From positions 1 through 46,742 of the forward strand of contig DWWD01000007.1 in the NCBI GenBank assembly GCA_019119895.1: a stretch of DNA of 46,742 nt, in the 5' to 3' direction. Below the pieces are notes generated by a model, which saw only the letters and a list, made by a program, of their open reading frames with translations, searched no databases and was not told the DNA's origin. Both the position numbers and the translations under genes were made by a program. Positions 2,584-33,992 of this stretch are shown piece by piece. Source of the stretch: Candidatus Anaerostipes avistercoris (GTDB lineage: Bacteria; Bacillota; Clostridia; Lachnospirales; Lachnospiraceae). Within the stretch, counting starts at the first letter, position 1; each line of letters begins with the position of its first letter.

Positions 2584-2612
2584 TTGACAATCATAGAGAA
2601 TTATGATATTGT
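2584..2612 (+). promoter_or_regulatory. promoter of rplJ-rplL
   Basis: TTGACA (2584-2589), 17-nt spacer, TATTGT (2607-2612) with an upstream TG. It lies just before the L10 leader. Confidence 0.75.
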
Positions 2613-2620
2613 TATAGAGT

Positions 2621-2737
2621 ATTACTGCCGAAGACAGTAGGTGCCGCATGGCGTAACGTAAAACTACCTACCGAGGAGAATCATTAGTATGAGCTAATTA
2701 TGCCCTTTGTCTTTGGAGACAGAGGGCTTTTCTTTTT
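2621..2737 (+). ncRNA. L10-type ribosomal protein leader with terminator
   Basis: A structured leader fills the space between the promoter and rplJ. Its parts are CTGCC..GGTGCCGCATGGCG, ACTACCTACCGAGGAG, and a final hairpin in which GCCCTTTGTCT (2702-2712) pairs with AGACAGAGGGC (2717-2727), followed by TTTTCTTTTT. This matches the Firmicute L10 leader, where L10(L12)4 binding controls rplJL expression. Confidence 0.7.
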
Positions 2738-2785
2738 AGAGGTGCGGCGGTACACGAAAAATAAATCAAGGAGGTGCACCATTTC

Positions 2786-3298
2786 ATGGCAAAAGTTGAA
2801 TTAAAACAACCGATTGTAGACGAAATCAAAGAATTACTTGCAGATGCTCAGTCAGCAGTGCTTGTTTCTTACCGTGGAATTACAGTAGAACAAGATACAG
2901 CAATGCGTAAGGAATTAAGAGAAGCAGGTGTTGATTACAAAGTATACAAGAATACAATGCTTCGTTTTGCAGTGAAGGATACAGATTTTGATTCTTTATC
3001 CGGAGATTTGACAGGACCTACAGCAATCGCTGTTTCTAAGACAGACGCGACAGCTCCTGCGCGTATCATTGCAAAATACGCAAAAGATGTGGAATCTTTA
3101 GAGATGAAGTCTGGAGTTGTAGAAGGAACATTCTATGACAAAGATGGAATCAAAGTTATCGCAAGTATCCCATCAAGAGACGAACTGCTTGCAAAATTCC
3201 TTGGAAGCATCCAGTCTCCAATTACAAACTTTGCTCGTGTTATTAACCAGATCGCTGAAAAAGGCGGAGCAGGGGAAGCAGCAGAAGCTGCAGAATAA
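2786..3298 (+). CDS. rplJ: 50S ribosomal protein L10
   Basis: 170 residues. MAKVELKQPIVDEIKELL, VSYRGITVEQDTAMRKELREAGVDYKVYKNT and the FARVINQIAEK end are the L10 pattern. L10 anchors the L12 dimers and, in complex with L12, represses its own mRNA. The ATG at 2786 follows AAGGAGGTG (2768-2775). An in-frame upstream GTG overlaps that site and is rejected. rplL follows after a 42-nt gap. Confidence 0.95.
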   Translation: MAKVELKQPIVDEIKELLADAQSAVLVSYRGITVEQDTAMRKELREAGVDYKVYKNTMLRFAVKDTDFDSLSGDLTGPTAIAVSKTDATAPARIIAKYAKDVESLEMKSGVVEGTFYDKDGIKVIASIPSRDELLAKFLGSIQSPITNFARVINQIAEKGGAGEAAEAAE

Positions 3299-5356: not shown

Positions 5357-5405
5357 ATTATAACCTGTGGTAATAATAATGTCAATAATTATTACCAATG
5401 GTATT
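5357..5405 (-). promoter_or_regulatory. aldolase promoter with two operators
   Basis: On the minus strand TTGACA (5380-5385), 17-nt spacer and TATAAT (5357-5362) form a perfect consensus promoter. Operator ATAACCTGTGGTAAT (5360-5374) overlaps the -10, and ATTACCAATGGTATT (5391-5405) lies just upstream of the -35. The TGA stop of the epimerase gene is contained in the TTGACA. Confidence 0.8.
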
Positions 5406-20248: not shown

Positions 20249-20338
20249 CACTACAGTGAAAAAATGTGCATTTTCTATTGACAGACCGACAGAACGCAAC
20301 TATAATAAAGGCATAAAGAACAGAAGCACACTATAGTG
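20249..20338 (+). promoter_or_regulatory. promoter of the second PTS operon with two flanking operators
   Basis: TTGACA (20278-20283), 17-nt spacer, TATAAT (20301-20306) is a perfect consensus. CACTACAGTG (20249-20258) lies upstream and CACTATAGTG (20329-20338) downstream, centres exactly 80 bp apart. This geometry suits repression by looping. It is the second transcription start in the locus, after the glycyl radical operon. Confidence 0.8.
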
Positions 20339-32815: not shown

Positions 32816-32837
32816 TTCATAAAATGAAATGAAGGGG

Positions 32838-32864
32838 AAAGCCGGGATATGTCCTGGCTTTTTT
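32838..32864 (+). terminator. terminator after rpoC
   Basis: AAAGCCGGGA (32838-32847) pairs with TCCTGGCTTT (32852-32861) with one G-U pair and a TATG loop, then T. Confidence 0.9.
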
Positions 32865-32976
32865 CTTTTTGGAAAACAACGAAAAGTTTTTAGCGAACAA
32901 AGCAAAAGAAAATTATGTGTACTGTATTCAGTATATTACGATAGAATATCTTAAGAAATCAGAAAATACTTTTAAC

Positions 32977-33005
32977 TTGACAAATAAATCAGAAATTGAT
33001 ATAAT
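32977..33005 (+). promoter_or_regulatory. consensus promoter inside the rpoC-rpsL gap
   Basis: TTGACA (32977-32982), exactly 17 nt, TATAAT (33000-33005). It is a perfect match to the housekeeping consensus and faces the rpoC-rpsL gap, where no recognisable gene lies. Transcription should start near 33012. Confidence 0.8.
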
Positions 33006-33321
33006 AAAACCATCAAAAGAAAGACAACTTAATAAAGAAAGAAATAGCTTAAAATGCTCCCGAAAGTTCGAAAAGAACTTTCTAAACCGGCAGTCGGTGG
33101 ATGTATTAATTGGAAGAATGAGACTGACTTAACAAGATATTGCGATTCCCGGACGGAATACAGCAAGTCTTTGAACGGAAAGAACGGTAAAGGAGTCAAC
33201 CTCATCAAAAAAGATACAAAGGAAGTAATTTAAGAAGTCAAAGATTTTCAGTACCGGAACAAATCATAAGAATCAACAGCTGGATCATAACAACATCCTG
33301 GGAAGGAAAAGGAAGATTCAG

Positions 33322-33525
33322 ATGTCCGCATGGATTCCAAAGAGAAAAGAAGGTTCAAAGAATTCTTGGGATTCAGAAAATCAGGAAAAGACTTTTAAAA
33401 GGAGTTTCAGAAAGAAACTTCAAAGAGATTTCAAAAGGAGTCTTAATTCTTTAAAGAGAAAGGAAATTCGAAAAGGATTTCAGACAGGAACTCAAAAGAG
33501 ATTCCGCAGAAAGTTTAAAGGATAG
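33322..33525 (+). CDS. hypothetical very basic 67-residue protein (doubtful)
   Basis: The ATG follows GGAAGGAAAAGGAAG at workable spacing. The product is extremely rich in Lys and Arg, with repeated FKRS/FRRKF-like elements and few hydrophobic residues. It matches no family I recognise. The composition may merely reflect the purine-rich DNA of the candidate RNA that contains it. Confidence 0.2.
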   Translation: MSAWIPKRKEGSKNSWDSENQEKTFKRSFRKKLQRDFKRSLNSLKRKEIRKGFQTGTQKRFRRKFKG

Positions 33526-33663
33526 AAAAAGACTTTGAAGAACTCTTAAAACGATAATTTCCGAAAGGAGGAAATTTTAAAAGATACACCGACTGACCGG
33601 TGGGGCGTTTTGATAAAAGGAACTCATTAATCAATTCTCCAGAATATGTTATAAATCGAAAAG

Positions 33664-33687
33664 ATGATGTAAAGAAATCATTTTTTT
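33664..33687 (+). terminator. weak terminator in the rpoC-rpsL gap
   Basis: ATGAT (33664-33668) with ATCAT (33677-33681), then a run of seven T ending at 33687. The stem is only 5 bp. Confidence 0.35.
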
Positions 33688-33725
33688 AAAGAGAAGCAGT
33701 AGGAGATGAGAAGACGGAGATAGCC

Positions 33726-33851
33726 ATGAGAACGAAAAAGCTGCTGCAGGACGAAAGAAGGAATGATGTGACGAGAAAGCATGATTCCGGCAGCTGGAAA
33801 GATGGCGGTGATTTTCCCGATATCCATAAAAGTACTGTAAAAGATTTATAA
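33726..33851 (+). CDS. hypothetical 41-residue polar protein (doubtful)
   Basis: ATG at 33726 with GGAG about 7 nt upstream, stop at 33849-33851. The product (starting MRTKKLLQDERRND, ending STVKDL) is highly charged with no membrane segment and is not recognised. It lies between the weak terminator at 33687 and the rpsL promoter. Confidence 0.2.
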   Translation: MRTKKLLQDERRNDVTRKHDSGSWKDGGDFPDIHKSTVKDL

Positions 33852-33869
33852 TAATTCAGGAGAAAGGTA

Positions 33870-33898
33870 TTGACAAAGACACGCTGGAGTTATATACT
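33870..33898 (+). promoter_or_regulatory. promoter of rpsL-rpsG-fusA
   Basis: TTGACA (33870-33875), 17-nt spacer, TATACT (33893-33898). It sits between the arms of the hairpin described at 33878-33917. Confidence 0.8.
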
Positions 33899-33917
33899 AA
33901 TCTAGCGTGTCTTTTTG
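33878..33917 (+). terminator. terminator hairpin enclosing the rpsL promoter -10
   Basis: AGACACGCT (33878-33886) pairs perfectly with AGCGTGTCT (33904-33912), followed by TTTTT. The left arm lies in the promoter spacer. Only transcripts arriving from upstream contain both arms, so it can stop read-through from the gap RNA without affecting rpsL transcripts. Confidence 0.7.
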
Positions 33918-33992
33918 GGTGCAAAAAAACACGTGAGTCACTAGGTGAAATGAAGTAACCAAAAGTAGAAAACATGTATGGAGGTGAAATCA

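Follow-up and report, generated by a model that had tools for sequence, protein, structure and literature searches.

A predicted large structured RNA gene between rpoC and rpsL in Candidatus Anaerostipes avistercoris and its relatives

The spacer between rpoC and rpsL of Candidatus Anaerostipes avistercoris (genome G000) very probably contains a real and apparently undescribed gene for a structured RNA, as judged from sequence comparison. The window analyzed is the whole stretch of 46,742 nucleotides of contig DWWD01000007.1, and the predicted RNA was assigned to positions 33012–33916 of its forward (+) strand by folding and comparison. The length is 905 nt in G000 and 778, 712, 705, and 753 nt in the other four distinct sequences (G001, G003, G008, and G006, respectively). 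Few bacterial RNAs besides rRNA are known to attain such a size with a conserved fold. A fold that is conserved and covaries, together with a noncoding sequence, is the general mark of a large structured noncoding RNA in bacteria, and both were found here. A preliminary description of the window had proposed a long, undescribed structured RNA at this place; the comparative evidence supports the proposal, although some of the arguments brought forward for it turned out to be weak or irrelevant.

The gap between the stop codon of rpoC (32815) and the start of rpsL (33978) measures 1162 nt. It is 63% purine and contains no gene-sized open reading frame (ORF) upon ORF inspection of the window, in agreement with the earlier observation of a purine-rich region without a recognizable gene. 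The intrinsic terminator of rpoC (32838–32870, +) was read directly as AAAGCCGGGA-tat-gTCCtGGCTTT followed by a T run, and lies outside the RNA. The transcript start formerly placed at 32865 falls inside this terminator; a start near 33012, deduced from the −10 box, is expected instead. The promoter region of the RNA (32937–33005, +) comprises an A/T-rich upstream stretch, the −35 box TTGACA (32977–32982), a spacer of 17 nt, a TG motif, and the −10 box TATAAT (33000–33005), and is of the extended −10 kind. It matches the sigma-70-type consensus at 12 of 12 positions, so the perfect TTGACA-N17-TATAAT promoter noticed before is indeed present, with the TG in front of the −10 box in addition. Hexamers, spacing, and TG are identical in all five distinct sequences. 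The exact pattern TTGACA-N17-TATAAT occurs three times in the window, compared to a mean of 0.01 in shuffled sequences; the other two matches are located at 20278–20306 (+) and 5357–5385 (−).

The RNA is predicted to end at an intrinsic terminator (33875–33914, +), from which its 3' end was deduced. The 14-bp stem (33875–33888/33901–33914) is followed by a U run, in line with the terminator-like stem described before, and the transcript end is expected at 33914–33916. This terminator was missing from the pattern scan because its loop exceeds the limit of the scan. A second promoter, for rpsL, was identified at 33870–33898 (+) as TTGACA-N17-TATACT, with TATAAT as the −10 box in the other four sequences. 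Its −35 box abuts the 5' arm of the terminator and its −10 box is located inside the terminator loop; this overlapping geometry is kept in all five distinct sequences. Messages started at the second promoter would hold the 3' arm of the terminator only and would escape termination. The RNA's own promoter and terminator, with a separate promoter of the str operon downstream, point to an independent transcriptional unit.

An architecture common to the five sequences was drawn from minimum free energy (MFE) folds, from RNAalifold, and by eye. The 5' domain (approximately 330–550 nt) is closed by P1 (TGCTCC with GGRGCR) and P3 (ACCGG..CAG with CTG.CCGGT), with P2 between them; P4 follows, then P5b and P6, the 3' domain, and the terminator. 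The 5' strand of P1 (TGCTCC, 33055–33060, +) pairs with 33602–33607, but its six pairs provide no covariation evidence because they vary by G–U changes only. The P2 hairpin occupies 33062–33082 (+). The 5' strand of P3 (33086–33099, +) pairs with 33587–33601 across approximately 490 nt, and the 3' strands of P3 and P1 are adjacent (33587–33607, +; CACCGACTGACCGGT followed by GGGGCG). The most conserved long part is the P4 element of 87 nt (33118–33204, +), in which AC/AC lies between the invariant helices TGAG/CTCA and TGACT/AGTCA, and the inner stem, which covaries, carries an NGGAN loop. It includes a conserved single-stranded joint (33172–33192, +), which reads CGGAWAGAACGGTAAAGG in four of the five aligned sequences and has one A fewer in G008. 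The P5b hairpin (33277–33324, +), capped by a GGGA tetraloop of the GNRA type, was obtained with RNAalifold and in the MFE fold, the alignment of G006 being less sure in this part. An expansion specific to G000 (33395–33565, +, limits approximate) consists of tandem short hairpins with A/G loops, to which nothing in the other four aligned sequences corresponds; G001 contains GATCAAGA repeats, which are situated earlier in the RNA. The 3' domain is closed by P7, whose 5' strand (33635–33657, +) pairs with its 3' strand (33843–33864, +), and ends in P9 to P11 with an invariant block of 17 nt. This block (ATGTGACGAGAAAGCAT, 33766–33782) is part of the P11 hairpin (33760–33788, +), whose loop (GACGAGAAA) might resemble the sarcin–ricin loop of 23S rRNA, a likeness that is not claimed here. 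Not every helix appears in every fold; the outer P4 helices are not formed in the MFE folds of G003 and G008.

The check for covariation proposed in the preliminary description gave a positive result by three routes, within the limits that five distinct sequences set to covariation statistics. In an arm-swap test, the helix arms were defined as segments at set distances from invariant blocks, a design that avoids choosing the arms by their pairing, and the duplex energies of own and swapped arms from the five species were compared over 120 permutations per helix. The own arms ranked among the best 2 of 120 permutations for six of the ten anchored helices. One permutation was as good as the own arms for the P3 extension, the P4 inner stem, and P7, and two were as good for P2, P9, and P11. 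The remaining four helices gave no support (P4' 19, terminator 24, P1 extension 90, P10 90 of 120); the arms of the terminator are nearly identical in four of the five sequences, and two of its stem pairs are changed on both sides in G006. With hand-picked arms (13 helices including P2, P3, and P7; 85 pairs, 425 cells), pairing was kept in 98.8% of the cells, and 33 pairs were changed on both sides (shuffle mean 13.5, slid registers at most 7), among them three successive pairs of P3. The arm-swap test is the fairer one, since choice by hand inflates the count of double changes. RNAalifold recovered P1, P2, P3, P4, P5b, P6, P7a, P11, and the terminator from a simple MAFFT alignment, despite the partial misalignment of G006; 31 of 123 pairs were changed on both sides, and the total covariation term was slightly unfavorable (+0.8 kcal/mol).

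Folding statistics favored the full-length RNA over its local parts. The z-scores of the full-length MFE (60 dinucleotide shuffles each) were −8.35 for G000, −7.65 for G001, −7.23 for G003, −6.06 for G008, and −8.26 for G006. Among 32 stretches of 905 nt, the RNA strand had the lowest z-score (−10.9, 16 shuffles), compared to −3.8 for its complement and 0.3 to −7.1 for 30 controls from the window. The six plus-strand windows of 300 nt in the region ranked between 24 and 291 of 466, which indicates that the fold signal resides in long-range pairing. The region had been called hairpin-dense with several GNRA-like loops; its local hairpin density is ordinary and it is the full-length fold that stands out, and an exact GNRA tetraloop was found in one of the 15 hairpin loops of the G000 fold, that of P5b. 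Unpaired bases are 60–62% A and 4–7% C in all five sequences, compared to 17–55% A in the 30 control stretches, whose overall A content is lower as well.

A search of Rfam 15, one of the checks suggested beforehand, revealed no known RNA family. In the window, no match over the RNA reached the gathering score, nor did any match in loci L131–L134 of four relatives, and the 11 matches between 32700 and 34000 at E-values up to 10 were all far below it. The covariance models of OLE, ROOL, and GOLLD did not assign the RNA to these families either. Elsewhere in the window, an ordinary ribosomal protein L10 leader (RF00557) was detected at 2610–2742 (+) with 83.7 bits. Among the literature matches listed, with subscription papers mostly outside the scope, none described an RNA at this site in the bacteria concerned, and the available main text of a study of 50 bacterial genomes (PMC11109978) has no mention of Anaerostipes, rpsL, or rpoC.

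Homologues fill the rpoC–rpsL gap in six of the 11 genomes of the genus (G000, G005, G001, G003, G006, and G008), with one copy found in each, and amount to five distinct sequences, the whole gap of G005 being identical to that of G000. R1, a model built from the P4 element, detected the same six genomes within the genus (E ≤ 1.7e-19), the best other match having an E-value of 0.38. With so narrow a range, the RNA cannot be generally essential. The length of the gap varies from 926 to 1488 nt among carriers. The gaps of the non-carriers G002 and G007 have other contents, including c-di-GMP-I riboswitches, so that the content of the spacer differs between species. The riboswitches are located at L127:1376–1461 and 1619–1702 (−) and at L130:2882–2965 (+). 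The gap measures 176 nt in G010, and was parsed as 72 nt in G009, which is probably not the true gap. In G004, no rpoC match was found in the 4.2 kb upstream of rpsL (L128, upstream of 4217), and the linkage of the two genes seems to be broken or interrupted. An RpoC tree of 17 rows, from which G004 was left out, is compatible with a single origin of the RNA, though weakly supported (47/88); the tree suggests the family Lachnospiraceae, and the nearest named row to the genus is Candidatus Scybalomonas. Two further observations concern single carriers. G000 and G005 are counted as different species and are nevertheless identical across the 1162-nt spacer (32816–33977 of the window; L135). G006 contains, as seen by eye, a MITE-like insert with long A/T-rich inverted repeats upstream of the RNA promoter (L134, about 2975–3215), and the promoter is intact downstream of it.

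Beyond the genus, the sampled genomes yielded no convincing relative at this search sensitivity. The samples of family, order, and phylum were partial and overlapping, and runs of more than 40 genomes used stricter filters; R1 matched two of 397 genomes in the family sample (both within the genus), two of 392 in the order sample (own genome and one at E 0.067), and five of 398 in the phylum sample (own genome and four at E 0.0046–0.021). E-values of 0.0046–0.067 per genome, as obtained outside the genus, can arise by chance alone. L140 and L142, the two phylum matches whose surroundings were read, are antisense within ORFs, and no Rfam match was present in L139–L142. With blastn, the whole G000 gap matched eight of 61 relatives, namely the six carriers and two genomes with matches of 46–48 bp, and 18 of 397 genomes in the family sample, where all matches were 23–69 bp long apart from those of G000 and G008 at the locus. 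The most divergent copy, that of G006, matched 21 of 285 genomes (the six carriers and 15 genomes with matches of 23–99 bp). In five other loci from clostridia (L017, L018, L019, L023, and L029), the gaps are shorter and showed no likeness by eye, and the longer gaps of L020, L025, and L047 contain open frames of 706, 397, and 500 codons, respectively. A motif scan allowing two mismatches was too noisy for use. No match was found in 50,697 phage records, and the plasmid matches were limited to two Borrelia records with a match of 44 bases, so that a mobile or phage RNA was rejected. Three exact-pattern scans of viral contigs gave one, one, and no match; both matches (L138 and L149) were attributed to chance, since R1 did not match them and the DNA appeared by eye to be coding.

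On the evidence of sequence, the region is probably best read as a free-standing gene whose product, a large and structured noncoding RNA of 705–905 nt, would act in trans as a scaffold. The RNA would be strongly transcribed and would accumulate in the cell. Like OLE, ROOL, or GOLLD, it may bind protein or self-assemble, and the single-stranded parts that are conserved best, namely the joint in P4 and the loop of P11, could serve as its contact sites. The site would suit a product made alongside parts of RNA polymerase and the ribosome. OLE, ROOL, and GOLLD are the closest kinds by size and ornateness. According to the available parts of PMC12286853, ROOL env-120 measures 659 nt and many GOLLD RNAs exceed 800 nt; both have elaborate structures with functions described as unknown, and phages and prophages carry them, in many cases close to tRNA islands. 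The predicted RNA resembles them in large size and elaborate structure, but it has no Rfam match and occupies a core locus of the chromosome; no tRNA was found in the window, and the phage and viral searches gave no real match. OLE is a large ornate RNA that binds proteins and has been proposed, in the same parts of that source, to sequester the ribosomal protein RpsU (PMC12286853); the predicted RNA is likewise large and ornate, but without an Rfam match. Its range within a single genus resembles that of an RNA of 520 nt from L. salivarius, which is confined to one species as far as the available part of the report shows (PMC5643018).

Several points count against a free-standing gene: four of the ten anchored helices gave no support, folding at 300 nt is ordinary, the range is narrow, and the constant position beside rpsL also fits a role in cis. 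The main rival, which we regard as rather unlikely, is a role in cis as leader or attenuator for the str operon (from rpsL on). In the attenuator form, transcription from the upstream promoter would stop at the hairpin in front of rpsL unless a signal or a ribosomal protein permits passage; in the interference form, polymerases ending on the hairpin would occlude the overlapping str promoter. The RNA is located directly 5' of rpsL in all six carriers, and the overlap of its terminator with the str promoter in every distinct sequence suits such a role. There is also a published precedent, since the rpoC–rpsL spacer of Candidatus Pelagibacter ubique contains a clade-restricted structured rpsL motif, described in the available part of PMC2704228 as a 5' UTR element with a three-stem junction in a spacer of 171 nt. 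The predicted RNA shares the spacer and the restriction to one clade with this motif, but differs in being a unit of 0.7–0.9 kb with its own promoter and terminator; its 705–905 nt far exceed the whole Pelagibacter spacer (PMC2704228). A ribosomal-protein leader would share its transcript with the gene that it controls. The RNA of the carriers ends in a terminator, and a further point against a leader is the near-consensus promoter that rpsL has of its own after the RNA. In the four of five non-carriers that were read far enough (G002, G004, G007, and G010, but not G009), a TTGACA..TATAAT promoter stands immediately in front of rpsL, although the RNA is missing.

It is improbable that the RNA serves to regulate or sequester a known factor, with a CsrA-type, 6S-type, or L7Ae/kink-turn-type partner. 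The high purine content, the many hairpin loops, and the one conserved NGGAN loop of P4 would suit such a role. 6S RNA and CsrB-type RNAs are free-standing regulatory RNAs, and the defining feature of the CsrB/RsmZ type is an enrichment in GGA motifs. The observed and expected GGA counts were 31/24.2 in G000, 16/19.9 in G001, 18/16.4 in G003, 16/17.4 in G008, and 13/16.1 in G006; the enrichment is thus not consistent, being clearly above shuffled sequences in G000 only, and a CsrA sponge is not supported by this count. RF00013 did not match at the locus, and a replacement of 6S RNA was rejected because all 11 genomes, whether or not they carry the predicted RNA, have a 6S RNA at another place. 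Regarding L7Ae, the preliminary description was partly right: A gene of this family occupies the same gap in Fictibacillus (L060) and Agathobaculum (L050), the two loci tested, and is missing from the gap here, but a family member is encoded elsewhere in the genome. Such genes occur in all 11 genomes, which leaves a partner available and at the same time does not support the RNA as a substitute for a lost L7Ae gene. Very improbable is an origin as unconstrained A/G-rich spacer DNA that folds by accident and is conserved through recent common descent. The restriction to one clade, the variable gap length, the repeats of G001, the hairpin expansion of G000, and the unremarkable folding at 300 nt would fit such DNA. 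It is already disfavored by the anchored covariation test, in which own arms pair best in six helices, and by invariant blocks of up to 17 nt against a mean column identity of 59% and z-scores of −6 to −8 over the full length in all five sequences. We consider one or more small protein genes to be just as improbable. The ORFs of G000 reach 67 amino acids, and a stretch near P11, matching over 19–38 amino acids, is open in G000, G001, and G003. However, the longest ORFs of G000, G001, G003, G008, and G006 (67, 67, 41, 86, and 77 amino acids) are close to the shuffle means of 63–74 (standard deviation 19–23), none of the ORFs is shared by all five, and many matching frames in the relatives contain stops. 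Codon-level conservation had been named in advance as an argument for proteins, and the ORF comparison of the five sequences did not reveal it.

Beyond the free-standing scaffold RNA outlined above, a bolder reading may be put forward tentatively, although we doubt it: a class of large "ornate" RNA that arose recently and became fixed in a single clade. It would be expressed from its perfect promoter at rates like those of rRNA and would form an RNA machine, self-assembled or as a ribonucleoprotein, that interacts with transcription or translation. With its terminator merged with the str promoter, the output of the RNA could be coupled to the production of S12, S7, EF-G, and EF-Tu. The location of the str promoter within the RNA terminator is in any case a compact arrangement with possible coupling. 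An RNA that is restricted to one clade, keeps its place on the chromosome, and is missing from close relatives would make its birth and function accessible to simple comparison, and the fold is already outlined by five sequences, so that deletion, probing, and pull-down experiments can be designed. The 5' UTR of rpsL itself (33930–33977 of the window) is partly conserved in the carrier clade and is a candidate for a separate leader; its conserved pieces, AGGTGAAnTnAAGTAACC and AGTAGAAAACATGT, are present in most carrier sequences.
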